A stretch of 64,000 nucleotides of DNA from Pontederia crassipes (Eukaryota; Streptophyta; Magnoliopsida; Commelinales; Pontederiaceae): NCBI GenBank assembly GCA_030549335.1, contig CM060191.1:1183001-1247000 (forward strand), in the 5' to 3' direction. Position 1 is the stretch's first letter. Each line of letters begins with the position of its first letter. The position numbers and the translations under genes are program-made. Below are positions 19,101 to 64,000 of the stretch, in pieces. Below the pieces are notes generated by a model that did not search any database, was not told where the DNA came from, and was given only the letters and a program-made list of their open reading frames with translations.

Positions 19101-22100
19101 TATACTTCTTCAGCAATGAGACCTATTGGCTTTTGTGCATGGATACATGATTATTGTTTCCTTTGTCACATAAATAACACTTTTATTAATATCTTCATCT
19201 CAATCATCATTGCATGTGGCAAATTTAAGACCCCACACATATCCTCAAGATACCTTTTTTTCCATGAGAAAGTTATTCCGTAAACTCGGTACTAAATTCA
19301 TAAGTTAATTAATGTTCTAAAATAAGTTAGCAACCTAAATTAATGGCTACAGAAGGGTATATTTAACATATCTGGAAAAACTTAGGGATGAAATATATAA
19401 GTTTATAGTTCAAGATTAGGTGTGAAAAGGAAGTTATAGTTTTAAGAAAATATCCCTACAATAGATGCCTGTAGTCCAAATGCCTTTAGAAGATTAGAAT
19501 GACTACAGAAGACTGAAAATTTATATCAACAGGAGGTGAATGTTTTTTTTTATGAAACAAGAACCAGACCCGGTGCAGCCCCTGATATACACCCGACCTG
19601 AGTCCAAACCGCACCCAAACCCCCAAGTCAACTTGGGCCGGGTTCCCTGCGACCCGATCCGGGCGACAACCCACCCCCCCTTCCCGCGCCACGCCTTCCT
19701 CCGATGCCTCCACCGTCGCCGGCCCAGCCTTCTGGCGAGCCGCCCTTCCCATTCCATCCCCACCAACAGCCTCTCGACAGCTACCTCCACCTCCATCTCG
19801 AAGGGGACGCCAAGCTGTGTCCACAAGAGTGTATGGCCGACGGCGCCGTCGGGATGTGGGCGCCTCTACGTCCGCCGCCGCGCCGCTGGAACCCCGTGCA
19901 GCACCCATGTCTCAGGAGGCCCAGGGATCTTCGACAGGCAGAACCTCCTTGCCTCCTTCCCCTCCTCCCCCGCCCTCGGTGCCCCCGGAGGTGGACCGCA
20001 TGACGACGAGTGAGCCATCCCTCCTTCCTGGACGGCTGGATGCCGACGTCCTCGACGTCGCCGCCCGGGTCAGCTTCAGGCTGACCAGACGACACTCCCG
20101 CCCACGACCTGAGGTTCGTCGGCGACCTTTTGGAGTTCACCGTCCCCCCGAACCCTTGCCCGCTATCTGAGGGAGTGGGACGTTGATGTGGTCCTACTTT
20201 AGGAGACTACACTCATGGAGTGTAGCACGCAGATGTGGGAGCAGATTGACGGTACTCGGCTAACCCAGCACATCTGCCTCAGTTCGGTTGGGCAGTCCGG
20301 GGGCAGTATCATTGGTTGGCGGGCAGACCATTTCACCTTGGTGGATTCCTGGACTGCCCGTTTTTCGATGACGGTCCACTTCAGATGCTGCTCTGATGGT
20401 TCTACCTATCTACTGTCCTGTGTCTACGGCCCCTGCTCGGGCTCTCTTCGGCCGATTCTATGGGAGGAGCTGTCGGCAGCCCGCCTCCATCTCCCGGATG
20501 ATCAATGGCTGGTCGGCGGTGACTTCAATGTCACTCTTGACATGGATGATCGCCCCACCAGACGACAGGGGAGAGACTTTGGAGCTGAGGAGTTCAGGGA
20601 TTTCATCGACTCCATGTCGTTGTCGGATCTTCCGGCGACGAATTGCAGATTTACCTGGCAGAGCACAGCGGCTCCCTCGGCCAGGTCTCGGCTTGACAAA
20701 TTCTTTGGCTCTTTAGAGCTGGTGGAGGCGCACCAGCTGTCGGTGGTTGTGGCTATGGATCGACCCTTTTCGGATCACACACCCCTCTTGTGAAAATCGA
20801 CCCTTTTCGGATCACACACCCCTCTTGTGGAAATCCGAACACGGTCAGCCCCTGTGTTCCCTGTTTCGCTTTGAGAGGTCCTAGCTTTTTGAGGAGGGGT
20901 TCAGGCAGGCGGTGGCCGAGCACTGGCAGAGTGTTTCATCTTCGGACTCTGCCTCGCGGACTCTCGCTGATAGGCTTCACAGCCTGAGGCGTTTCCTCGT
21001 GGACCGTCGGAGACAGATCCGGACAGATCGGGAGGTGCGGAGGACCGAGGCTTTGGAGGTCATTTCTCGGCTTTACCGAGAGGACTCCCGTCACCTCACT
21101 GAGGCCGAGGTGACCCAGCGCAGGCAGGACCAGTCGACTATACACTTGGAGGACAGGTTGGTGGAGATTCAGTGGAGGCAGCGCTCCCGGCAGACCTGGC
21201 TTCGGGAGGGAGATGTCAATACTCGTTTCTTCCACCTATATGCGAGCTCGCGGCTTCAGGAAAATCGGATCGACCAGTTGGAGGTCATGGGTCAGAGGAT
21301 CACCGGCCACCACCGCATCGGGACCGCCATTACCTCCTTTCATCGGGACCAGTCCAGACGACGTCCTCCGTCGGTCTGGAGGTGGTCCCCCAGGGGTATT
21401 ACTTGTATTACTGATGATCAGTCTTCCATGTTAGTGCAGACCACTAAAGACGAGGTCACCGACGCACTCCGCGACCTCAACAGCGAGGGGTCCCCCGGCC
21501 CCAACGACTTCCTGGTTTTCTTCTACAGAGAGTTTTGGCCAGTGGTGAGGGAGGACGTCATGGCGGTCATCCAGGAGTTCACTTGTGGGAACCATGGCTT
21601 TGAGCGTCTGAACCGGTCGCTTCTCTTCATGCTGCCCAAGCGCACGCCAGCGGATAGAGTGGAGGACTTCCGACCAATTTCCCTATCTAACGCTATATAT
21701 CTCGTGGTGGCTCGGGTGTTGACCAATCAGCTTCGGGAGGTGCTCCCCAACCTCATCCATCCTGCCCAGTCGGCTTTCGTTCACGGCAGATCCATCACTG
21801 ATAGCTACTCTATGGCCTCTGAGATTTTAGCACAGTGGAGACGTGGCAACCGACAGGCCTTCCTCTGGAAGGTTGATTTTTCTAGAGCTTATGATTCTCT
21901 CTCGTGGTCTTTCCTTTGGCATTCCTTATAGGTGAGAGGGTTCCCTGCGACCTGGATTGCATGGATGAAGCGGTGTATCACCACAGCTTCCTTCTCGGTC
22001 CTGGTTAATGGGTCGATGGCCAGGGGCTGGGTGCAGCCCCAGCGAGGTGTCCGCCAGGGGTGCCCTCTTGCGCCCATGCTATTCACGCTTGCGGTTGATG

Positions 22101-25100
22101 GCCTCGCCCGATGTACTCAGGAGGCATGCATATCCGGCCTCTTCAGTAGCTTTGCCGAAGGACTGGTGCCTCTGCTCCAGAATGCGGACGACACCGTCTT
22201 CTTCATCGAGGGCTCCGTGGCTGAGGCTAGACAAGTGTCTATTTTGGTGGAGCTCTTCGGCTTGGTTTCGGATCTTGAGATCAACCATGCCAAGTCATCT
22301 TTCATTTCTTTTGGCATGGTGACGGAGGACGCTATGCGATGCGCGGAGGAGCTGCATACGCCGGTTGGAGCCCTACCTATTACCTACTTGGGCCTTCCCC
22401 TGTTTGATCGGCATATTGGCTCTCGGAGGAGGACCCCGATTATTATTGAGCGGATGGAGCGCCGTCTCCAGGGCTGGAGCTCTCGGCTTTTATCTAGTGG
22501 TGGTCGTCTCATTCTGCTCCGATCTGTGCTCTCATCACTCCTGATCTACTTCATGTCGGATTGACTCTTTGAGGTGCAGATTCTTTTGGCAGGGGTGTAG
22601 CCCCGCTCGTCGGGCCCACCTTGTGGATTGGAGCAGCATATGTAGGCCCACCTCGCAGGGTGGTTTGGGTGTTCGGGATCTCCGCTGCACCAACTGGGCG
22701 CTCCTTGCTAGGTGGGTGGGCCGGATTATGAGGCCCGATGACAGCCTATGGAGACAGGTTTTCTTCACCTGCTACGGTCGTGATATCTCGTGGGACTCTA
22801 GGCCCACCGTTCCTCGGGGCTCTTCTTCATTTTGGAGGAGGGTAGCAGCCATATTCCAACGTGTGCGGTCATTCATGATTCCATCCCTAGGCTCTGGGGA
22901 GGCCTTCTCCTTCTGGCGGCATGACTGTTCCCAGGGGGGCCTCTTGCGGATTCCTTCCCTCGATTACTGGCTCTTGCATCACACCCGGAGGCATTGGTGG
23001 CGGAGTGTTGGTCTCGGAGGGGTGATCCTGGGACCGAGTCCTGGACCCCCCTTTTCATATCTCCACTTTTTGATCCGGCTTTCTAATTTATGTGCTCTTC
23101 ATCAGACGATTGCCCCTTATCATCCTCATCCGACCCAATCTGACGGTTGGGTCTGGGCATCGATTGCTTTTTCGGCACGCAGCCTCTATTTTCATTTTCT
23201 CCCGGCTCCCACTGACTCAGAGGACCTCAGAGCGGATTGCAGGTGCATCTGGTGCTCCCGCTTGCCGCTTAAAGTCAAGATCTTTGCTTGGCTTCTGCGG
23301 CGTGAGCGAATCCTTACCAGAGTTTATAGGGCGAGGTGGGCGACGCACGCAGACACCTCCTGTGTTATGTGTGGAGAGGCAGCAGAGGATGTTATGCACT
23401 TGTTCTTTTGTTGCCGCGTGGCTCGAGAGGTTTGGTCTCGGATTTCCATTGTGGGTGGTGTCCCACTGGTGGCTGCGGACTTCTAGCAGAGTATGAGGGC
23501 GTTGGATACTCGGAGGACGGGCTGGAGACTTTCTGTGGCATTTTTATAGCCGGTGCCTGGGCGATTTGGCTCCAGCGCAACCGGGTCATTTTTTGTGGGG
23601 AGAGATGTCGAGTTGATAGTATAGTACACCACATGTTTTACCTTCTTCATGAATGGGGTTTTGGGTAGCACTTTTGTGCCTTTTGCCGCTCTCCTCTGAA
23701 GAGCTTCTCACTTGTATATGATGTTCCTTTTTTATGATATAAATATACATGGATGATATCCTAACTGGAATCATCCTTTTTCCTCTCAAAAAAAAAGAAA
23801 GGATGACTAGCAAGAGGTAGTCATCTAGGAGTTTCATTGATGTAAAAAAGAGTTACAGCAAATTAAGAAATAAATGCGAAAAGGGGTATGCATCTCCACC
23901 AGATTACAACTTCTACCACACTACAAATACTTTTTTCATTCCAAAAAAATTGCCTTAGCATGTGAAACCAACATTCTCAGCATAAACACGACCATTCCGG
24001 AAAATATTCCATAAACAAGAGGTGAATGTTCTTAGGAAAGAAGGTTCATATAACATTATAACCTTTTAAACATACAAAATTCATTAACAAGACGACACAC
24101 AAAAGGAAGACTAGGATGAAATCCATTTTGCAAAGAATAGTTAACACAAAATATCAATTCTAACGAAAGAGGGGACATTACTTGAGCATGAGAGCTAAGA
24201 AAAAGCTGATCGTCTTCACGACAGAATGTGCCAATATTTCGTACATCAACTAGGTTCCCTGAATCCCGAATTTGCAGTATATGTATTGTCTGATATCTCA
24301 GAGACGTAATGCATAGCAATTCCTCATACAAGAAAACCCCTGTGCTATGAGAAAGGTTGACATAGTCATTACAAAAAGCCTTTTCATCTAAGAGAACTCC
24401 ATCTTTCATCCTGATATGAGAATTATCGAAACTCTATGTTATTTAAAGAATGAACTGAAAAACTTATGTCCTATCTGAAAAGATAATGGAACCTTATGCA
24501 TTTCGAACTTGCATTGACAACAGCAGAAAAATACCTAACAAGGTGAAATGTAATTTTCTCTATTGAAGGTACTCCATGAATTGCACCCTCAACTGTGGGC
24601 ACTTCATGATTCTGTGCAGTCGATGTTGCAAATAAGCCAAACTGATGATCCTCCATATAGAGAAAGAAGTCTTTACAAATGATCTCATTGCTCGATCCTA
24701 GTGAGAGACAGTACAGCTCGATGAAGAAGCTGTCGAACCTCTTGGCCTTTGGGGGCAAATTTTGATTATCACAATGTTCTCCTTTGCAGGGAAATGACAA
24801 CCATGTTGGTCTGTAAACTATAACATCTTGATGATTCCTGCTAAAGCTCACAAGATACTGACCATCATCTGTAAATTTGCGGAAAAAATGATCTGGGCAA
24901 TCAATATCATAAATAGTAGAGCTGGGAACCAGGTTCTCATAAAATTGTCTAACCAAATTAACCTGCAGCAAAGAAGGAAAATATCAAATACCATCATATA
25001 ATTGTCCTCTGTTGCTGAAGTTCAAGGATGCATTGCTTAGATAAGACTCCCATTCAGAGTACATGATACTAAATGGGATTTGCATATCAAGAAAATAGAA

Positions 25101-45600: not shown

Positions 45601-48600
45601 GGAGAAGTTTTGGGCAGATATGGAGGGTTTGATTGAAAGTATACCAACAACCGAGAAAGTTTATATTGGGGGAGACCTTAATGGACATGTTGGTAAAGAG
45701 GCAGGACCACATGCAAGGGTTCATGGTGGTTTTGGTTTTGGGGAGTTGAATGAGGAAGGACAAACTATTATTGATTTTTCTTTAGCATACGACCTTAAGA
45801 TTATCAACACTTATTTTAGGAAGAGAGAGGAACATTTAATCACATACAAAAGTGGAACTCATAGGTCTCAAATCGATTTTTTCTTGACAAGAAATACTGA
45901 TAAAAGACGCTGTACTAATTGCAAAGTAATTCCTGGGCATGGGGTGACTACACAACATAGATTGTTAGTTCTTGATATGCAAATGAAATGTATAATACCA
46001 AAATCCCGAACAGTTTTTGATCGAAAGATCAAGTGGTGGCAGTTAAAGGGGGAGAAGCGAGAGACTTTTAGAAGTAAGTTATTAGAGGAAAATGTGTGGG
46101 AGTTAGAAGGAGATGCTAGTATCATGTGGAAGAATGTGGCAAAAAAGTTTGAAATGGTTGCTAAAGCCATTTTAGGAGAATCAAAAGGTTTTGGACCACG
46201 AGATAAGGAGACTTGGTGGTGGAATGAGGAGGTCCAAGAAAAGGTGCGTAATAAGAAGAATTGTTTCAAGGCGATATACTTGGACAATAGTTCTGACAAT
46301 TGGGAAAAGTATCGTTTGGCGAAAAGGAAGGCTAAGAAGGCAGTTAGTGATGCTCGTGCTAAAGCATATGAGGGGTTTTATAAGGAGTTAGGGACAAAGG
46401 CTGGTGAACAAAGGATTTACAAGATTGCAAGGAATAAAGAGGAGTCGAGAGATTTGGATCAAGTAAGATGCATAAAAAATGAAGTTGGCAAGGTTTTAGT
46501 TACTGAGGGAGATATTAAGAACAGATGGGAAGAGTATTTCTATAAGCTATTTAATGATCGATGTGAAGGTTCCCGTTGTGATTTGGAGGACTTGACAGTT
46601 AGCGAATGTGAGCTTAATAGGTCATTTTATCGTAGAATTAGAGTCTCGGAGGTTAGCGAAGCTCTTAAGAAAATGGAGAATGGTAAAGCCGTTGGACCGG
46701 ATGGTATACCGATTGAAGTTTGAAAATGTTTAGGAGAAAAAAGTGTGTTGTGGTTATGTAAACTATTTAATGAGATTTTACGGTCGAAAAAGATGCCTGA
46801 TGATTGGAGATTAAGTACATTAGTTCCTATTTACAAAAATAAAGGGGATATTCAGAATTGTGCAAATTATAGAGGGATTAAACTTATGAGTCACACTATG
46901 AAATTATGGGAAAAAGTGATTGAGTATAGATTGAGAATGGAGACTAGTATTTCTGAGAGACAATTTGGGTTCATGCCAGGAAGATCCACTACAGAGGCGA
47001 TTTATTTACTAAGGGGGATGATGGAGAAGTATCGAAGTAGGAGAAGAGACTTACATATGACTTTCATTGACTTAGAGAAGGCGTATGATCGGGTACCAAG
47101 GGATGTACTTTGGAAAGCCTTGCAAAAGAAGAGGGTGAATGTTGCCTACATTAAGGTAATACAAGATATGTACGATGGGGCATTGACTAGGGTTAGGACA
47201 CCCGGAGGTGAGACAAATGAATTTCCTATAGGAATTGGCCTGAATTAAGGATCAGCTGTAAGCCCGTATCTATTTAACTTAATTATCGATGCTATAACCG
47301 AGAGTATCAGAGAGGAGGTACCTAAGTGCATGCTATTTGCGGATGATATAGTACTTTTAGCGGATTCAAGAGAAGAGATTAATACAAAATTGGAAATATG
47401 GAGAAATACGTTGGAGTCAAAGGGTTTTCGTTTAAGTAGGAATAAAACAGAATATATGCATAACAATTTCACAAATAAACAACTTAGAGACGATTTGAAA
47501 GTTAGGCTAGGGGAGGATATAATATCTGAAGTGACAAAGTTTAAATATTTAGGATCAATTGTAAGACAAGATGGTGAGATTGATGACGATGTTAATCATA
47601 GAATTCAAGCTGGTTGGTGTAAGTGGAGGAAAGCCACTGGAGTTCTTTGTGATAGAAAAGTACCCAATAAAGTTAAAGAAAAAATCTATCGTACTGCTAT
47701 AAGGCCAGCAGTGTTATATGGTAGTGAATGTTGGGTTATGAAGGAACAACATGAACGTAAAGTGGGGGTAGCCGAAATGAGGATGTTGAGATGGATGTGT
47801 GGTCATACAAGATTAGATAAGATTAGGAATGACCATATACGTGAACGAGTCGGAGTGACTCCTATTAGTGAGAAAATGGTAGAGAATCGTTTGAGATGGT
47901 TTGGTCATGTTCAGAGAAGACCATTAGATGCGCCAGTAAGAAGAGTAGATCAAATAATTTGGAGTCCGATTAAAAGAGGGAGAGGGAGGCCAAGGCGCAC
48001 ACTTGGCGAACTAATAGAGTAAGATCTATTGGTGAATAATATACCGAAAGGTTTGGTTACTAATAGAACGGCATGGCGTCGTATGATCCATGTAGCCGAC
48101 CCCACCTAGTGGGATAAGGCTTTGTTGTTGTTGGTTGATTTATATTTCTTCCTATTAACCTCAGATATAAATCGCAAAGGGTAAGTTGATAGTTTTGTAG
48201 TTTAGACTTTCCTCTTTTAGGGGATTTTTGTAGGTTGGAAGAAGGCGGAGGTAGAGACTGCCAGCTGATAATGAGTCCAATATCCATACCCAACCATCCG
48301 TCCTCGACGGATCCGGACGAAACAGAGAGATCCTTTAGTGAAGTGCCAGTAGCTCAGAAAAACGTTGAAAAGAAGAGTGGAGAGCTGCAAAGAAGAGTCC
48401 AGGAACCGGTACCTCAGACAAGGTCTCAGCCATAGATGCATCTGGATGCGCCGCCAAGGCCCACAATCGAGGGAAGGACTCCGCTAGCAAGCTCCCGGGT
48501 AACCAGTCTTGTTGTCAAAAGGAAAAGGCCTCTCGGAGCTGAGTGAAGAAGTCATGAAAGGGTGCACCCACTGGAGTAATCCCGCCAAAAACCTCCAAAA

Positions 48601-51600
48601 ACATGAAAGTCATTGTGGTAGGACCTGGACTCCCATGAAAGATCCCAACCATAGAGAAGAAAATCTCCTGCCATAGGCTGTCCTCAAACCTTATGATCTG
48701 GTCCACCACTAGGCAAGGAGTGCCTAGTTGGTGGTGGTGGTCTCAAACGCTCGGACCGCCCTATGAGGTGGGCTTACAAATGCTATGACATGCAACCAAA
48801 TGGATCCACTGGGCAGAGGGATGATAAAAAGTTTAAATTGAGCCGTAGGAGAAAGTTAGGTATGGTTTGGACTTGATTCCAATGCGGTTCTGTGTTTGAT
48901 GGATTTAGGTGTTGACTGGGTGGGACCGTGGTTCAGTAGGGTTTGGTTCCGTCTATTATCAGGCTCGGGTACGGTAGGGGTATGCTGGTGAAAGGGAATT
49001 TGAATTAAAGGCGGGGATGGATGGGTACAATTCGCACGTGCTCCCCTCATGTGCGTTGATGGCGCAGTGCCTCCAACTCGCGAGGGGGTGCAGGTGGTCA
49101 GTCAGCGACGATGTTGGCCTAAGATGTTGTGGAACCAGCACATCTTAACCATAGGTTGAACCTGTTAGTGCCCGCTTGTAAGACGACCAATGATGGGAGG
49201 CGGCCTTCTGAGTGTAGTTCGACTTCAACAGGGAAAGCAGACAAGTCTGGCGATCCGATCGTCGGTGAGGAGATGGATGTTCCTGAGGGACCGCACCACG
49301 GCCGCCACGACCTCTGACCACAAGAGATGCAGAGGAAGACTCGAAATCTTGATCGTACACCTATCCGCCGGAGGCGCTGTAGCTACTCCATCCTCCTTTC
49401 TCCTGTGGTGCGTCCTCCCGGCGGTATTAGGGGTGGCGTGGTCAGCAACGTGTCCTGTTTCGAAGATTCCGGAACAAGGAGCCAGAGCGTCGGTGATACC
49501 CAGTTGAGATGGAATTGTGGGATGACCCCCACTTCAGTGATGATTGCCATCCGGAGGATGGCCAGGTTTGACAGTGTGCCGTCGACATTGCCAACAATGC
49601 AACTGCGGAATCCAGTTTCCGTCGCCATCCTGCCTCTCGGCTCGCCGGACCTCTCCCCACCTCTGTCGACGTTGAGATCCGCCCAGGTTGCGTCCTCCCT
49701 GCATCCGTTATCCTCTGTGCCGGCCCCGATAGCTTTACTCTCCAGCTACAGCCCTCTGTCTGCTCTACATCCTGAGCAGAGGTGGTCGCCGACGGACAAT
49801 CTCGATCGTCGCAGGCGCTGGCAGACCAGGGCCAGACTGGCCTGACCAATCACGTTGGGGCAGCAGGTGAGAATCGTACTGCAATTCAAATTTTGAATCC
49901 GCTTCCAAAAACCCTCTTCTGCCAACCGCACCCTTCTCCTGAATTTGGCTCGCGAGTTGGCTCAATCCCTTCCCAACTTGAACTTGAACTCAGCCGCTCC
50001 ATAAGTCCTGTCCACTCCTTGAACCCAGCTCCAACATTTGCCAAGGCTGAATCCACCCAGTCCGATCGCCGCACTTACGGTTCTCACCGCCCCCGGCAGC
50101 TCCTCCCCTCTGCTATCAGTGTCGTCGACCTGCACAGGCTGTCACGCTGCCACCGCCAACTGGACAGCAGTCGCCCGCGCAGTCGTCATCGCAACCGCTG
50201 CCCCAGCAGCCCATTGGTGACGCTCCGCGGATTGGGTCGGTTTCGCTTCATGCTGATGTCGACACCGATGGGGAACACAGGGTGGATGAGAGGTATGGCC
50301 TTTCTGCGGAAGCTACCGGCCTACGCCATACTCGCCGACGGGTACCGGTAAGGGGCGCGTGGCCTTACATCGTCCGCTACAGCGCCTGCCCGCCTACCCT
50401 AGGAACAGTCACAAGAAGCGTCCGACACTTTCATCATCGGAGGGACAGCAGCAGCCCACACAGCCGTCGTCACCGCCGCCGCCAACTAGGTAGGAGTCGC
50501 TCGCACAATCATCGTTGTCACCGCCCCAGCAACCTGTGGTGGGGGATGCTCCGTTGACCAAGCTGGACTTGCTGGTCACCGATGACGGGTATGAGGATGT
50601 GCGCCTCCTCGCAAGATGGTCAGATGAGGAGTTCTGCTTGGTTGCGGGTGCCCCCGGCCTCCGTCACACACGTCGGCGGCCTCGGGCAAGAGGAATGGCC
50701 CTAGAACAGGGGGATGGTAATCACTTGGAAGATACGGGACCGGCCTCGGGGTGCGGATGAGTGGTTGATCAATGTGCCTGATGACTACCTGGAGCTCCAG
50801 CAATTTCTTACCATCAGAAGTCCGTTATTGGAGAATGTGTGGAGGTCACTTCGTGTTCGGCCACATCAGAGATCGAGGTGGAAGACATCATTGGCGACAT
50901 TTTAATTGGTACCCTGGCCATTTTGGCATCAGTACCGCTTTTGTGTGGGGAGAGATGTCTAGTTGAGCATTTTTGTACACCGCATCTTCTTTTTGTTGGG
51001 GATCGGGGTTTTGGCTTGACGAGATATGTTCCATTCTGTCGCTGCTCTCCCTTTGAGAACATACTTTTGTACATGACTTTCATTCCACAGTTATAGTTAT
51101 ATATAGCTGGATGACGACCACAACTCTGGTGAGTGGTCATCCTTTTTCTCAAAAAAAAAAAAAAACTGCGAAGAAACTCCACCCCCTGCTGAACTGCGGG
51201 CTACAATGGAATGTCAACAGTGGGGGTGGAAGTCGTCTTCTCCAGTTCAGGCGGAGGCGTGACCTCAGTTCTGGAGTGAGTCACACGTGCCCTACATGCT
51301 TGACAGTGCCCCTTCCTGCCACAGCGAGGGTGGCGAACGTGTGCCGAGCATGTACACGCTAGGTGGCCCTCCACTAGGCATCGAAAGCAAACACCGAACA
51401 GTCGGTGCTTGCGTCCTGTCCACCCATGGATCTGCACCACTAATCTGCACCACCGAACAGTTCCCGGTTCTGCGAACCTCCTCCCTCCCCCTGCTATCCA
51501 GGCTGCAATGACCACCATTACCTTACCTTGGTCGCCGGAGATCCAACGAGGGGGTAGACATCCTTAGCGGCTGCGTCGTCGGCGAGATCAGTGGCGTCCC

Positions 51601-54600
51601 CCAGAGTCGGCGGCTCTTCGCTTGGCAGTTATCGCCGGAGTTGGCGTCTCACCTCCGTTTCATCTTAGCCGAATCTCCTCCTCCCTGTGGCTGCTCATCC
51701 CTGGGGCTGCACAGCAACACGATCATCTCTTGGCGACTCCAACCGCTGTGTCGCCGAGCACCATGGTCCGGTGGCGCTCCTGGAAAGCAGAAGATGGTGC
51801 AGCAAGGGCGCCACAGGGGATCCGCCGGTCGATGGACATTCAGGGGCTGCCTCTCCATCTCCAGCGGCCGGAGATCGCCCAGGCAGTGGTGCAACAACTG
51901 GGAAACCCCATCTCCATCGCCCTTTCGGCACTGGGTTCGTCGGATCTGTCCATCACCTCCGGGGAGGTTGACCTGCGCCCAGGAATCAGCCTTCCGGCAT
52001 CACTGTTTCTCAGCATAGGCGCTGATAACTTTGTCATCCAGGTGCGGTACTCCGAGGGGTCTGCTTCATGGGCTGAGGTGCTCGCCGGTCGCCCGCCGTC
52101 GTCGCCTCAATTGTCAGCAGTCCGGTCAATGCTTGGCCAAACACAGCAGATGCGAATGTCACGTGACAGCGTTGAAGACCAACACCTCGAGAACCCAGCT
52201 TTCCGAACCTGTGAACCCAACGCACACCCTGATCAGTCCTAGCCAAAACCGCTCAACTTGCAACAACCCATCATCACTGCTCCACCATACACTCCCTTCC
52301 CGGCCATCTCCACCATGCTTGCAATTTCCCCTCCACCATAGCAGCCACACCACACCAGACATGCAGTGACCGCCCCCACACCCCCGCCGTCATGCGTGGT
52401 GAATTCCAGCCACGCTGATGACCGGATACCACCGAAGCTACATCAGGTCGCCACACTTCCCTCCAGCCAGTTTCACCTCAATCCCCCGACCTTGGCCAGA
52501 CATCTTCAGCCTCACTACGATTCTCACCACTAGTGCTCACTGGCATCCCAATGGTCATCTCCCTTACGGCCACACCCACCAGTGATGCAATCACAACTTC
52601 CCCCCTCTACTACCAGCGCCGTAAGGTCGCACAGTCAGTCACGCCGCCACCGCCAGCGGATCAGCAACCATCATTGCCGCCGCACCAGCAACCTGTGGAA
52701 GGGGCATCACAGACCGGGTCAGTTCCGCCGGACGCCGACGTTGGCGCTGATGGAGTTCACAGGGCAGACGAGGTGTCTAGCCGCGGTGCGGCAATTACCG
52801 GCCTCCTTTGCACCCGCCGGAGGGCACTAGCAAGAGGCGTGGCCTTGCACTGGCCCCTACAGCGCATGCTCACCCACCCTAGGGGCAACCACAAGAAACG
52901 TCTGGCATCGTCACCATCAGAGGGACAGCAGTCGCCCACGCATTCTTCATCGCTGCTGCAGTCAGTGAGTCAACAGCTGTCCATACAGCCATCGATACCG
53001 CTGCCCCAGCTGCCCGTGGATGGGGGTGCGCCGCCTGACTCGCTGGCTACTGTTGACAGGGACGATGGGGAGTGCCTCCACGCTGGGTGGTCGGATGAGG
53101 AGATTCGCCTAGTTGCGGAGGCTGCCGGCGTCCGCCACACACGTCGGCGCCCCCGGGAAAGAGGAGAGGCCTCTCAGCATGGGGATGCTAAACCCACGGA
53201 GGGTGGAGGTTGAGTGAACGGAGCACCCGATGATTTCTTTTTGGGTCTCCAGGGATTCCTCATCACCGGAAGGGTGTTTTCATAAGTGACTCGAAAGATG
53301 TGCGGCGACCATTTCTGCGTTCAGCACAACAGTGATCGAGTTGGAGGACGCCATTGGTGATCACTTTTGGATGGGGAGAAAGGCTTGGTGAATCTTGTGG
53401 TATTCTTTTGTTTTGTGTGTGGGGAGTGAGGCCTGGTGAACTTTTTGGCACTTCTTTGTTTTGTGATTGGGGAGAGAGGCCTGGTGAATCCTTTGTACTC
53501 AGCATCATTTTGGGGGGTCGGGGTTGGGGCTGAACGAGATATTTTCCTTTTGTTGATGCTCTCCCTTTGTGAGCCTACACTTGTAAAAGTTTCCCATTCC
53601 ATAGTTATATACATTTGGATGACAACCACACTCCTGGTGGTCATCCTTTTTCTTCTCAAAAAAAAAGAGGAGAAAGCCCTTTTTTATCAACTGTATTGCA
53701 TTTCATATTGTGATCTGTTTTTTTTTTGTTGTCTGATTGCAGTGGTACATATCTTTTACCTATAAAAGAATACAGTTTTGCATATCTTTGCAAAGGGTAC
53801 TTTCTTCACAAATAAGCTTCATTCTTTACAGAGCTTAGAATCTCAAATGCAATTTCCATTCCATAATTAATTATTCTTTTTCTTATTCCTAGTCCTTGGT
53901 TGTTGCTGAGACCTTTAACTCACCTATGTTTGCCTTATGTGGAGTTTGATATGATTTTCATACAAGCACACATCCATCTCATTTAAAACAAGTACATATT
54001 TTTCTTATTTGCTTGACCTTGTAGGTAACGCTTCTATGTCAATGTGGACTGGACGTAACTAGTCAGAACACGTCACCAATGACAGTTAGCACCATTAAGG
54101 TTAGGATGTGCTGTTCATTGGCTTATTTTATTAGGAAAAAATTATGTGCCGCTATAAATTATTTATTTTTCCTTTTTCAGTCATTGATTGGGCACTTTGA
54201 TTTGGATCCGAACCGCATCTTTGACATTGTAAGTTTCTTTCTTCTTAATAATGTAGTATTTTCCTTTAAACAAATAAAATACTTTCTGGTTGGCAACCAC
54301 AAATCCTGGTTGTCATCCTTTTCCATGTAAAATAAATATTTTCTGAATTTCTTTATGATATGTATTTGCTATTATTCTGTTGGCTTTACCTTTTAATACT
54401 GTAGTGTATATGATCTGTGTCCTCTTTCCACAGGCCACAACCATCTTTTTCCACTTTTAGATTAATGAACTATATGCATATTTCTTTCTGCCACATTAAG
54501 CTCGGCACTTTTTGTTGACTTCTTAAGGTGCTGGAATGCTTTGAACTCTATTCTGACAACAACATCTTCTGCAACCTTATACCTCTTTTTCCCAAGGTAG

Positions 54601-58689: not shown

Positions 58690-58745
58690 TTCTATACGAT
58701 TTTTTTTTTGAGAAAGGAAAGGATGACCACAAGAGTTTACGGTTG

Positions 58746-61700
58746 TCATCCATGTATACATATATCAATAAAAGATATCAGCATGTACAAGTAAGGTGCT
58801 CTCAAGAAGAGTGGCAAAAACTGTGGGAAAAGGCTACCCAAAACCCCACTCTCGAAGAAGAAACGAGGAGTGGTGTACAATGTTATCCACCTGACATCTC
58901 TCCCCTCCAAAACTGGTCCGGTTGCGCTGGAGCCAAATGGCCCAGGCACCGGCCAAAACTCTGCCAAAGAGAGTCTCCAACGCTGCCTCTGTCTCCCATG
59001 AATCTGAAGAAGCTGCCAAAATGCGTCCGCCGATGCTGGGAAGCCGTCCAAAAAAATCGTCCGTGACCACACCTGCTGAGATATAGAGCATCCAAAAAAT
59101 AGGTGCCCAACATCCACCTCCGCCTCTCTGCAGAGAACACAAGATGTGTCAGATAGGGGGGCCCATCTCACCCTATAAGCTCTCGTGAGTACCCCGCCCA
59201 CGTCGCATGAGCCAAGCAAAAATCCTGACTTTCAGCGGTACATTGGAGCGCCATGTGAGTTTGCAATCAGCTCTGAGATCATCAGACACTAGGGGGTCCG
59301 AAAGAAAATGGAGGTAGAGATTACGTGCCGAGAAGGTGGTCGAGATACATATCCATCCATCTGCCCTGGAGGAGTCCGACCAAAAGGGGGCGATCCTCTG
59401 ATTCAACGATAATAACTCATGAATCATCTGATCGGATAATGAATAACTGAAAGCGGGAGTCCACGACCCTGTGCCTAGACCACCAACCTCCGACCAAGAG
59501 TCAGCAACAGTCGCCTCAGGATGTATCGCTAAATCCCATAGCCGAGGGAAAGACCGCAAGAGAGCTACCAGGAAGCCACTCATGTCGCCAGAATGAGAAA
59601 TCCTCCCCCGATCCAAGCATGGGGGTCATGAATGGGCGCACCAAGGGGACAAGGGCTGCAATGCCCCTCCAAAAGGAGGCCCCCTGCGGTAGAATGGGCC
59701 TAGACTCCCAGGAGAAGTCACGACCATAACAAGTGAAGAAAACCTCGTGCCAGAGACTGTGATCAGGTCCACCTCATGCCAGAGACTGTGATCAGGTCCC
59801 ATGATCCGTCCCACCCACCGGGCAAGTAAAGTCCGGTTGGTGAGGCGAATGTCCTGAATGCCTAGACCGCCTTGTGATGTGGGCCTGCAAATACTGTGCC
59901 AAGTCAATAAATGAACTCGCCGCTCAGGGCTGGTCCCCTGCCAAAAAAATATGCTCCTCAATGCATCAATCCGTCTCACAATCTCTCAGGCATCCTGAAA
60001 ACTGATATGTAATAAATCGGTAGTGCAGAAAGAACTGAATGAAGCAAAATGAGACGTCCACCACGAGATAATAGCCTCGAACTCCACCCTTGAAGATGAT
60101 GCTCCATTTGCTCAATGATCGGGGTCCAACTCCAAGATGCGATGTGACGAGGAGAGGGGGAGACCAAGATATGTAATCGGCAATGTGTCCATGGCAGTAT
60201 GTAGCTCCTCTGCACATCCATCCGCCTCCTCCGTAACCTTGCCAAAAGGTATAAATAAAGGTATAAATGAAGATTTAGCATGGTTGATTTGAAGACCAGA
60301 AGCCTCCCCAAAAAGCTCCACCATAATTGCAACTTGTCTTGCCTCCAGCTCCGTGCCCTCAACAAAAAATACATTGTCATCCACATACTGTAACATAGGA
60401 ACTAGACCGCCAGCAAAGGTACTAAACAAGCCATCCTGAGCACATCTGGCGAGACCATCAACTGCAATCACAAAAAGCATAGGAGCGAGTGGACAGCCCT
60501 GGCGAACGCCCCTGTGTGGCTGGACCCAGCCTCCTGCCAGTGCCCGCTGACTAGGACCGAGGATGAAGATGTGGCAACGCAACGCTTTAGCAAAATCTGA
60601 CCTGTAAAGAATGCCATAGAAAATCCCATGAGAGAGTATCATAAGCTTTAGCAAAATCTACCTTCCATAGGAAGGCCCGCTGATCGGTCCTCCAATGAGC
60701 GACGATCTCGGAAGCCATAGTGTAGCTGTTGGTGATAGAGTGGCCCCGAATGAAGGCCGACTGAGCTGGATGAATGAGGACCGAAGGACCTCCCTCAACC
60801 GGTTAGCCAAAACCTGCAATCAGTCTGAAGTTCTCGACTCGACTCGCTCTGCTGGGGTGCGTTTGGGCAGCATGAAAGTAGGAACCGATTGAGGCGCTCA
60901 AAGTTTCGATTCCCCCTGGTGAACTCCTGGATCATTGCCAGCACGTCCTGATGCACCACCGACCAAAACTCCTTGTAGAAGAAGATAGGAGTGCGGCATC
61001 GCCATTGAGGTCCCGAAGTGCCTGACCATCCTCAGAGATGTCCTGTGAAAAGAAAGAAAAATGAGCATCAGAAATCTGGGGGATGGCCTCTGGGGACCAC
61101 CTCCATGGACTCGTGGGCCTCCGCTTGGAAAACTCCTAGTGTAATGATGCAATGGCTGCCCCGATACGTTGGTGGCCAGTGATTTGCTGCCCTTGAACCT
61201 CAAGCCGATCAATCCTGTTTGCCCGGTGGAAAAACCCAGTGTAGGCTGTCCTCATGCTAAATAACCTCCTGAGCCCGCCTGCGCTGAGCCACCTCATCCT
61301 CAGTGAGATGGTTAGAGTCCTCCTTGTCAAACCGTGCGATGGTACCCAAAGCCTCAGTCCTCCTTGCGTCCCGGGCCCCACGAATCTGTCTCCACAGGTC
61401 TCGAAGGAATTGCCGCAGGCCGTGCAGCCGGGAAGCGAGGGTCCTCACCGCTGTGTCCGATGCCGGGATGCTGTGCCAGTGTGCTGCCACCTGATCCCGA
61501 AATCCATCCTCCAATAGCCATGATCGCTCAAAACGAAATAGAGAGCGCAAGGTCTGCCCATCATTGGACTGCCATAGGAGGGGTGTATGGTCCGAGAATG
61601 GTCTATCCAGTGGCTGGACGTCGGCCAACTGGTGGGCCTCGGCCAGCTCCAATGAGCCGAGAAATCTATCTAGTCGCAATCTAGAAGTAGGTGCTGCCGT

Positions 61701-62300
61701 GCTCCGCTGTGTGAATTTACAATTCGTGGCTCGAAAGTCAGCCAACGAATGAGAATCAATGAAGTCTCTAAAATCTGCAGCCCCGGAGTCCCTCCCCAGC
61801 TGACTGATGGGCGATCCTCCATGTCGAGAGTGATATTAAAGTCTCCCCCGATCAGCCAGCGAGCATCCAGGAGGCGCAGACGTACATCAAAAAGCTCCTC
61901 CCACATCGTGGCCATAGAGACTTCGAACACAGACCATAGACACAAGAAATGAGGTAGGTGGAACCCTCAGCACGGTGTCTCAAGTGGGATGACATCAAGA
62001 ACTTGCAAATCCAAGAATCCTCCAATGTGAAAAGGTCATCTCGCCAGCCAATGACGCAACCTCCTGACCGGCCAACCGAGCTGAGGGAGAGGTGCCTCGA
62101 AATGCGTGAACTACATGCCGATGTCCATGTGTTCCCACATGGGTGCGCTACAGTCCGCCAGTTTCGTCTCCTGCTGGAGAACCACATCGGTCTCCCACTC
62201 GCGCAAATAGAGCCAAGAATTCGGCGTCTCCCCAAATCGCCAAGGCTGCGAACATTCCATGTTAGCACATTCATAAAGACACCGTGTCCATCTCCCTGGT
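58746..62300 (-). pseudogene. L1 ORF2 (endonuclease - reverse transcriptase - zinc finger), multiple frameshifts
   Basis: Endonuclease: VLTWNVRSLGDLGRRRI, then after a frameshift VLQQETKL, then CVIGWRDD, LIGGDFNITLDMEDR, LRLDRFLGSLELAEAH and FSDHTPLLW. Reverse transcriptase: GWVQPHRGVRQGCPLAPMLF and YVDDNVFF, keeping both Asp of the catalytic pair. Zinc-finger end: PLKVRIFAWLMRRG and CVLCREAEVDVGHLFFGC. Frame breaks occur at about 62215, 61940, 61720, 61260, 60900, 60660, 60240, 59970, 59770 and 59200. A 36-bp tandem duplication lies at about 59757-59793. Clearly inactive. Confidence 0.85.
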
Positions 62301-62399
62301 GGGCGAAATCCTGCCCACAACTGCCCTCCAGGAGACTGAGCTGGACGGTGAGCGGCCACGAGGCTCCAGGGCGTGTCCACCCGCGACGCAGTCCGCCGG

Positions 62400-63904
62400 C
62401 GAGAGTGCTTGAAGCCTGCAACCAGTGCCACCCTTTGAACTTCCTCATTCGCCGCCTGTGAACGCGAGCGCTGAGCGTGTCCCACGACCAGCGGGGATAA
62501 TGGCCTGCCATGGGATCGCCGACGCCCGTAGACCCCAGGCTGGGCATCCACCCCCTGGGTGCCGAGTTGGTTGACGGTTGTGCAGCCGGTAGAGGGAGAG
62601 GCGAACAGGCAAGCCAACGACAGGGGGAGATACCTGAAGTTGATGGATTATGGGGGGACTCCAAAAGGTGACGGAGGGGAACGTCTGTGGCCGGCGAGGT
62701 GAGGGGTTGGGATGTGGTGGGCGGCTGTCGCCAAAGCAGGAGGGGGACACATGGGGGGTCGCGGTCCCGCATAGAGGTCGTATGGGGGGGGGGGAATAGT
62801 GTAGAGACGTGGCATTTCGGGTGGTGGAACTGTGAAGCGGTTGGTTAGGAGAGGTGGACTTAGGTTGGTTTAGTTGCGGGGAGGTGAACTTAGGTTGGTT
62901 TGGGTGTGGGGAGTTGGGGTTTGGTGAGGGTTGGGTGCATGTCACTTGTTGGTTGATAGAGGGTTCGGGTGATAAAGATTTAGGAATTTGAATTAAAGGT
63001 GTCCCTGTACAACTTCCACGTGCGTCTCCCACGTGCCCCTGGCTGTCGGCGTCTGAGCAGCGGATTGGATGCCAGCCTCACCGGAGGGCAGCGGAGAACG
63101 GCCAGCGGCGATGTCTGCCCACAAACGAGCTCCCCCAGGTTGCCGCAGATGGATGATGAAACGGCCGGCGTCGGCGTGGATGATGACCGAGGATGGGAGA
63201 CAGATGTCTGGCCTGCGCTCAACCTCGACTAAGACCACCGATAGGTCCGGCGCCCCAATGGCCGGCAGGACGATGGAGAAGGGGTTGCCGACTGAACGTG
63301 TCGCTTCCTTCACCACCTCCGGTTGCAAAAGTGGAAGACCCACTATTTCGATGGTCTCCCTAGCCGCCGGCATAACAGGAATCGCCCCATCATCTTCCCT
63401 CCATGGTCGCCGACAAATACTGGTCTCAGTCGAGAGATTGGATGTAGCAGCCATCAGTCGTTCCCGCTGCTGTGCCGGGAACGAGAAGCCAAAGCTTCGG
63501 CAAAACTCGACTGAGGTGGAAAGGGAGGGGGAACCTACCTTGTCGACGATGGCCATGCGCAGAGCCGCCAGGGACGTCGATCCAGCGTTCGCCTCATTGA
63601 AGCAGGGGATGACAATCGGGGAGTTGATTTTCGCCATCTCTGGCTCCAGCGAGGACACTGAAGCAGTTCTGGCGCGTGGTGGAGACCTGTGAACCCCGTG
63701 GCAATTCGATCGGTGGTGATCGTCCCCCTTGCAATGCAAACAACGAAGTGGAGCAGAGCAGTCACACGCGAAATGTCCTCCCAAGCACCTGAAACAATGT
63801 GACACCGGCCGGCGACCATGAGTGGTGGAGCGGGGATGGGGCCTAGAGATAGTCGCCCACCCGTCCCTGGCAATCTGCACCTTGGTACGCATCGTGCGGA
63901 TCAA
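62400..63904 (-). pseudogene. L1 ORF1 (gag-like protein), partly intact
   Basis: A 303-codon frame (63904-62993) encodes DGWATISRPHP, then two knuckles, CFRCLGGHFACDC (spacing one residue short of C-X2-C-X4-H-X4-C) and CLHCKGDDHHRSNC (normal spacing), then LAALRMAIVDKVGS, EIVGLPLLQPEVV, NPFSIVLPAIGAPDLS and EVERRPDICLPSSVII. After a frame change the proline-rich middle and the C-terminal NEEVQRVALVAGFKHSRRR follow to about 62400. ORF1 binds L1 RNA and is thought to aid ORF2 in cis. It probably extends upstream of 63904. Confidence 0.75.
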
Positions 63905-64000
63905 GCAAATGCCTAGACCGGGACAGAAGAAAATGGAGCTGCCGGCCGGAGGCGGTGGGTGGCGCTGCCGGCAGGGACGAGCGTTATGCTAGCTGGTCGC

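Follow-up and report, generated by a model that had tools for sequence, protein, structure and literature searches.

Introduction

Long interspersed nuclear elements (LINEs) that encode only the first open reading frame (ORF1) have already been described for mammals (HAL1) and flies (HeT-A). HAL1 is reported to encode only the ORF1 protein (ORF1p) and to have several origins in mammals (PMC5753468), and another source describes it as likely mobilized by the L1 machinery (PMC4161310). HeT-A, an element of Drosophila telomeres, encodes no reverse transcriptase (RT) and probably uses that of TART or TAHRE, as stated in a third paper (PMC5537684). Here, we analyzed 64,000 nucleotides of the Pontederia crassipes genome (assembly GCA_030549335.1, contig CM060191.1, positions 1,183,001 to 1,247,000 of the forward strand; this whole stretch is called the window), in which a reading made from the letters alone (the sequence-only reading) had proposed an amplified, ORF1-only L1 family built on the plan of HAL1. 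Two neighboring plus-strand copies in the window, A and B, are dead, degenerate relics. Most probably, they are relics of nonautonomous, ORF1-only L1 elements copied in trans, and their subfamilies descend, together with two others (C and D), from a deletion-derived ancestor. Subfamilies A to D would represent a plant counterpart of HAL1 and HeT-A. In the literature searched, we found no ORF1-only LINE among plant L1s; most subscription papers were beyond reach, and absence from print is not implied.

Results

A and B share a deletion junction and lack endonuclease and reverse transcriptase

The ORF1 C-terminal motif (WSDEE..LVA..RHTRRR) terminates around position 50679 (A) or 53149 (B), and a short segment encoding PDDY or PDDF (the PDD segment) begins 77 to 98 bases further on, as the sequence-only reading had described. 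The single interval that it gave, 49590..53670, does hold two neighboring copies, but it resolves into 49607-51165 for A and 51454-53666 for B, with an L1 fragment on the opposite strand in between. Endonuclease (EN) and RT, which had been claimed to be absent, were not detected in either copy: tblastn gave no EN or RT match at an E value of <1e-3 in any element searched (26/26; both window copies, 20 A, 3 B, and 1 C), whereas both full L1s used as positive controls matched (2/2).

Aligned base by base, which had been set as a check, the junction segments of A and B proved homologous far above chance (score, 235; z, 14.8; reached by 0/500 base shuffles). An older relative of A gave a z of 20.4 against the B junction, and z ranged from 14.8 to 20.4 across six A-B pairs. 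The shuffles used in this test, as well as in the tail-duplication, tail-comparison, and EN-remnant tests, preserve base or residue composition only. The junction is shared by A with B and by C with D. The shared junction had been taken as the mark of one copied master. The deletion junction is indeed common to A and B, but the window copies belong to two old subfamilies, about 66% identical in the 3' part of ORF1; A and B are old sister subfamilies and not two copies of one.

In a full L1, the part lying roughly 3 kb away is the C terminus of ORF2, which in A is recognizable from 50831, and the points flanking the deletion of A sit about 3.4 kb apart in the autonomous L1 L055. For the PDD segment, which the sequence-only reading had placed about 3 kb from the end of ORF1 in the full copy, no homology to the far 3' part of the full L1 was found. 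This segment is located between a remnant resembling the EN start and the ORF2 C terminus, immediately before the latter in A; an ORF2 C-terminal origin of PDD..LQ.FL was unsupported by alignment. Tentatively, its best counterpart may be a decayed remnant of the early EN, as suggested by a weak alignment. By eye, a few codons after the ORF1 stop of A resemble the EN start, and this remnant is clearer in subfamily C (z, 2.8 to 8.7 against six L1s). The copy at 58690-64000 that had served as the full reference carries ORF1, EN, and RT, but it is a broken copy located on the minus strand. Another candidate, L042, was rejected as a full L1 with an A-type 3' end: its match to A starts at 50748, the DNA directly upstream consists of other debris instead of a continuing ORF2, and an L1 tail is farther away, indicating a 5'-truncated A copy.

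A and B have dispersed copies, those of A with hallmarks of retrotransposition

We searched the 1.13-Gb genome with both junctions; the counts are lower bounds, and each includes the window copy. There were at least 40 matches for the A junction (40 scored of 123 candidates) and at least 40 for the B junction (40 scored of 182 candidates), in good agreement with the proposed amplification of ORF1-only L1 elements. The matches are scattered along the contigs, many of them well away from the ends, and each subfamily has its own dispersed copies on many contigs. Among the matches listed, the nearest copy to the window B junction is 99% identical over 251 bases; among the A copies compared, ORF1 identity reaches 97.3%.

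The next-best 20 places were fetched for A, giving 21 copies with that of the window. A full-length A element measures about 2.9 kb and consists of 5' tandem repeats, ORF1, a possible decayed EN start joined to the end of ORF2, a 3' hairpin, and poly(A). The common 5' end region with its tandem repeats is reached by 12 of the 20 fetched copies, whose lengths are 2.8 to 3.0 kb except in two cases (4.0 kb, including an insert, and 3.15 kb); the 3' ends are also common. The first 400 bases of A copies, including L010 and L020, hold imperfect direct repeats of roughly 110 to 230 bp, which we take to be reminiscent of the promoter monomers of some L1s. The A copy L016 has an insert of about 1.1 kb within ORF1 (between 3299 and 4438, oriented).

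Target-site duplications (TSDs) were scored for copies of A and B. A score of 10 or more was reached by 8 of the 21 A copies, each with a different sequence, and by 0 of 420 mismatched flank pairs; different TSDs at dispersed copies had been the second check set by the sequence-only reading. The flanks of the A copies gave eight matches of 48 to 268 bp, and no pair had whole flanks in common. In A, TSDs, poly(A), 5' truncation, and dispersed flanks are hallmarks of target-primed reverse transcription. One B copy (L047/L035) adjoins the 3' hairpin of another L1, with an apparent TSD inside the hairpin sequence GGATGACAAC, a possible insertion into an L1 tail.

ORF1 has a duplicated C terminus in all four subfamilies

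ORF1 is unbroken in L020 (A), with an open frame of 683 codons (664 from the first Met), and in L077 (B), with 660 codons; in the remaining A and B copies inspected, it is broken or cut short. The predicted protein comprises CCHC zinc knuckles (Pfam zf-CCHC, 21.6 bits; cutoff, 20.8), a core matching DUF4283 with a score of 15.2, well under the cutoff of 27.2, a linker rich in Pro, Gln, and Ser, and a basic tail. In all four subfamilies, this tail holds a tandem in-frame duplication of the linker plus basic unit over 73 to 97 aligned residues, with a score reached by 0/500 shuffles in each (one element per subfamily; for D, two frames were combined to obtain the tail). We also examined 12 EN-bearing L1s, chosen at 69 to 93% identity to the L068 endonuclease; in 12 of 12, one unit was present and a second was not detected within about 700 bases before EN. 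Similarly, further autonomous L1s inspected, L054 among them, have a single C-terminal unit. The tails of A to D score 397 to 621 against one another; their highest score against any of four autonomous L1s is 134. The C-terminal half of ORF1 is 53 to 64% identical among the subfamilies.

A genome search with the L020 ORF1 returned at least 85 matches (65 of 4359 candidates scored); among the matches listed, only the place of L020 itself spans the whole query without a stop. Three places were inspected in full: L054 and L055 are L1s with EN and RT, and L056 is a third ORF1-only element, C. Downstream of 14 further ORF1 matches, eight stretches lead directly into an A/B/C-like 3' end (L057, L058, L059, L060, L061, L062, L064, and L066), five lead into EN/RT (L065, L067, L068, L069, and L070), and one, L063, holds ORF1 only and was uninformative. 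Subfamily D is our label for L058, L059, and L061; the ORF1-only plan of A and B recurs in C and D. With the ORF1 tail of C, at least 158 matches were found (150 of 1629 candidates scored). The endonuclease search gave 4925 first-look candidates, 150 of which were scored, and by these counts autonomous L1s are apparently abundant in this genome. To look for autonomous L1s with a duplicated tail, we compared coordinates by eye: none of the listed C-tail matches lies within 1 kb of the 150 listed EN matches, a comparison of low power given that 150 of the 4925 EN candidates were scored and the C-tail matches were partly listed. The autonomous L1s L054 and L055 resemble A in their zinc-knuckle ORF1 (48 to 58% identical to A in the aligned core), and L055 also resembles it at the 3' end (76% identity over 118 bp). 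Unlike A, both have Exo_endo_phos, RVT_1, and zf-RVT domains, and L054 has the single C-terminal unit.

Variants shared by A copies are biased toward third codon positions

In A (21 rows), variants present in at least two copies number 82/83/129 at codon positions 1/2/3 (p 6e-4), whereas singletons number 220/210/201 (p 0.65; Fisher p 5e-4 for the contrast). Outside CpG sites, the shared variants comprise 82 synonymous, 112 replacement, and 0 stop changes, compared to 151, 352, and 16 among singletons (Fisher p 0.0012). These values depend on the choice of fetched copies. Estimated by simple counting, the between-subfamily ratio of nonsynonymous to synonymous divergence (dN/dS) of the ORF1 C-terminal half is 0.29 to 0.57, with dS values of 0.59 to 1.02. 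Since A and B, at least, have the deletion plan in common, this constraint may be read as having acted on elements without ORF2, a reading that would fail if A and B arose independently from unsampled autonomous L1s bearing such a tail.

The 3' end is of the L1 type

The A element ends in a hairpin (GGATGA...TCATCC), after which come a pyrimidine run and poly(A). The search pattern fixes the outer stem; the inner stem was more stable than that of shuffles (fraction, at most 0.034) for 10 of the 13 sequences folded. The outer stem is common to the ORF1-only elements and two L1s of the window. A 3' hairpin that is conserved and shows compensatory changes has been described in one monocot L1 lineage and interpreted there as a sign of stringent template recognition (PMC3747384). 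A is marked as a derivative of an L1-clade LINE by its homology to the ORF2 C terminus at 50831-51031, by a 3' end of the L1 type that carries poly(A), and by TSDs that differ among copies.

Discussion

Several of our results weigh against the reading of A to D as retrotransposed ORF1-only elements descended from one deletion-derived ancestor with a conserved ORF1. In a tree of the ORF1 N-core (16 rows; 5 of 21, A_L019, A2_L076, anti_win, win14k, and B_L047, were excluded as frameshifted or fragmentary), the four subfamilies and autonomous L1s branch from an open fork, and a single A-D clade is marginally rejected (approximately unbiased [AU] test, p 0.035); the N-core was dropped as proof of one clade. 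The A/B and C/D junctions align weakly (10 pairs; score reached by 0 to 35 of 500 shuffles). A TSD score of 10 was not reached by 13 of the 21 A copies. For B, only four copies were scored: two reach 10 compared to 0/12 controls, at a score of 8 the controls reach 3/12, and one of the two candidates sits in hairpin sequence of another L1. Furthermore, B (14 rows) showed no codon-position bias (shared variants, 32/30/35; p 0.82) and was rejected as proof of within-family coding constraint. Finally, two window L1s with EN/RT were folded: one passes the inner-stem test, and the one at 58.7 kb has no stable inner stem.

The N-core tree and the weak alignment of the C/D junction with that of A/B are what would be expected if several independent ORF1-only families had arisen by separate deletions from different autonomous L1s, with the ORF1 C-terminal half and the 3' end spread through recombination or template switching. 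Synonymous differences between A and B point the same way, their proportion being 0.55 to 0.73 over the first 400 residues and 0.34 to 0.54 beyond, although saturation weakens this comparison. We regard such a polyphyletic origin as possible but rather doubtful: the C-terminal duplication is present in all four subfamilies and was undetected in the 12 EN-bearing L1s, and the C-terminal halves of A to D are far closer to one another than to the four autonomous L1s compared. A single clade thus has the C-terminal similarity and the duplication in its favor (without a tree) and the N-core AU test against it. A mosaic ORF1, in which N-terminal halves were swapped with autonomous L1s on one 3' backbone, would fit both the N- and the C-terminal results. 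The ORF1 halves of A, B, C, and D differ in their depth of divergence, which suggests recombination between ORF1-only and autonomous elements.

The ORF1 of these elements might also be cargo. Passive hitchhikers would spread through their 3' end and promoter, as short interspersed elements do, and would not need a coding ORF1. Most A copies inspected have a broken ORF1 (only L020 is stop free across the query among the matches listed), B lacks within-family constraint, and two window L1s share the outer hairpin stem, all as this explanation would have it. We nevertheless consider it improbable, in view of the third-position excess in shared A variants that is absent from singletons, the dN/dS values between subfamilies that already had the deletion plan, and the unbroken ORF1 of L020 and L077. 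As for a local artifact, A and B are neighbors, and one segmental duplication could have produced two similar fragments. However, they differ at about a third of the bases in alignable ORF1, no unique flanking DNA common to A and B was found, no A pair has whole flanks in common, and A interrupts an antisense L1 that is not part of B; the dispersed copies of each on many contigs refute this origin, which we hold to be extremely improbable.

We favor ORF1-only elements with a common, deletion-derived ancestor. An ancestral L1 would have lost about 3.3 kb, a stretch starting early in the endonuclease and stopping close to the end of ORF2, its ORF1 C terminus would have been duplicated in frame, and its descendants would have diverged into at least four subfamilies. 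Movement in trans by the ORF2 protein (ORF2p) of L1s is what the retrotransposition hallmarks and the 3' end lead us to infer. The RNA of the element would encode its own ORF1p, which would coat that RNA; ORF2p from a complete L1 in the same cell would recognize the 3' hairpin and poly(A) and copy the RNA in trans by target-primed reverse transcription. More speculatively, and with less than even confidence, A to D could form a long-lived lineage of ORF1-only L1 parasites, whose ORF1 was selected for serving its own RNA, whose basic tail was enlarged by duplication, and whose N-terminal halves were repeatedly acquired from autonomous L1s by template switching. If true, this would be a Gag-only LINE in a plant, competing with complete L1s for ORF2p.

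In agreement with the HAL1-like plan that had been proposed, these are ORF1-only L1 derivatives without EN/RT, amplified with a deletion junction that is common to A and B and joined weakly by C/D. Like HAL1, a nonautonomous L1 derivative encoding ORF1p only, they have a predicted ORF1 protein (unbroken in L020 and L077) and undetected EN/RT in 26 of 26 elements. They differ from it in their CCHC zinc-knuckle ORF1, the duplicated ORF1 C terminus, and the 3' hairpin, and probably in their L1 lineage. The ORF1 of mammalian L1s is of the coiled-coil type, and the CCHC zinc knuckle in ORF1 and the zf-RVT domain in the L1s of this genome would speak against a derivation from mammalian L1, that is, against HAL1 proper. 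HeT-A is likewise a Gag/ORF1-only non-LTR (long terminal repeat) element without its own RT, but it belongs to another clade than L1 and is targeted to telomeres, whereas copies of A to D are dispersed, some with TSDs; instead of head-to-tail telomeric arrays, we found scattered matches, and A sits within an antisense L1. The TR-GAG elements of plants, LTR elements with only GAG, similarly keep a nucleic-acid-binding Gag and obtain enzymes from others, but they are LTR retrotransposons with a different replication pathway. By analogy, A to D would work like HAL1 and HeT-A, yet we file them as members of neither. That such a parasite plan would have evolved independently, its ORF1 still coding, is relevant to whether LINE ORF1p acts in cis on the RNA that encodes it while ORF2p can be borrowed. 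Because copies with unbroken ORF1 coexist with many autonomous L1s in one genome, this cis/trans question is testable here.

Features of the window

The coordinates of A, B, and the surrounding L1 sequences are given in Table 1. The interval between A and B (51166-51453) is a fragment of an older antisense L1 ORF1. By eye, the fragment continues on the other side of A, which indicates that A inserted into this older L1. The candidate TSD of the window A copy scores 5, inside the range of the mismatched controls, and its sole support is the continuity of the interrupted host ORF1. This copy also lacks about 230 bp near 50069-50090 that are present in other A copies. The antisense zinc knuckle at 51306-51437 was considered as a 5' inversion of B by twin priming; this was rejected, as the piece is unmatched in all compared B loci and reads into the antisense L1 across A.

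Table 1. Positions of ORF1-only elements and related L1 sequences in the window
Feature	Position	Strand	Remark
Element A, 5'-truncated ORF1-only L1 copy	49607..51165	+	
ORF1 remnant of A	49659..50760	+	tblastn pieces 49659-50069, 50066-50356, 50377-50760
Second unit of duplicated ORF1 C terminus in A (RWSDEE..RHTRRR)	50605..50683	+	Duplication itself demonstrated on other copies
Junction segment of A, with 11-residue PDDY stretch at 50777-50809	50731..50830	+	Tentatively, a decayed remnant of the endonuclease start
Remnant of the ORF2 C terminus in A	50831..51031	+	37.7% over 69 aa, E 5e-5
Hairpin at the 3' end of A	51109..51142	+	Then TTTTTCTC, then poly(A) 51151-51165
Candidate left TSD of A, AACTGCGGA	49601..49609	+	Right copy AACTGCGAA at 51164-51172
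Element B, 5'-truncated member of second ORF1-only subfamily	51454..53666	+	
RRM-like portion of ORF1 in B, fragment	51622..52242	+	
C-terminal portion of ORF1 in B, fragment with both duplicated units	52533..53213	+	Duplication demonstrated on copy L077
Junction segment of B, with 12-residue PDDF stretch at 53226-53261	53196..53380	+	Homologous to A junction segment
3' terminal hairpin of B	53617..53646	+	Then TTTTTCTTCTC, then poly(A) 53658-53666
Older antisense L1 ORF1, zinc-knuckle part, host of A insertion	51306..51437	-	Continues at 49101-49601
Antisense host L1 ORF1, RRM-like part, continuation	49101..49601	-	
Comparator: degenerate L1 with ORF1, endonuclease, and RT	58699..64000	-	3' end with outer hairpin stem, no stable inner stem

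The degenerate full-type L1s at 58699-64000 and 20148-23800 lie on opposite strands and are about 66 to 67% identical. On the plus strand at 46745-48022, two adjoining open frames resemble the RT of another LINE type, which we presume to be RTE-like. Matches of 43 to 66 bp to 48073-48138 recur at 97 to 100% identity in several fetched loci, a behavior that might be expected for the 3' end of the LINE at 46745-48022.

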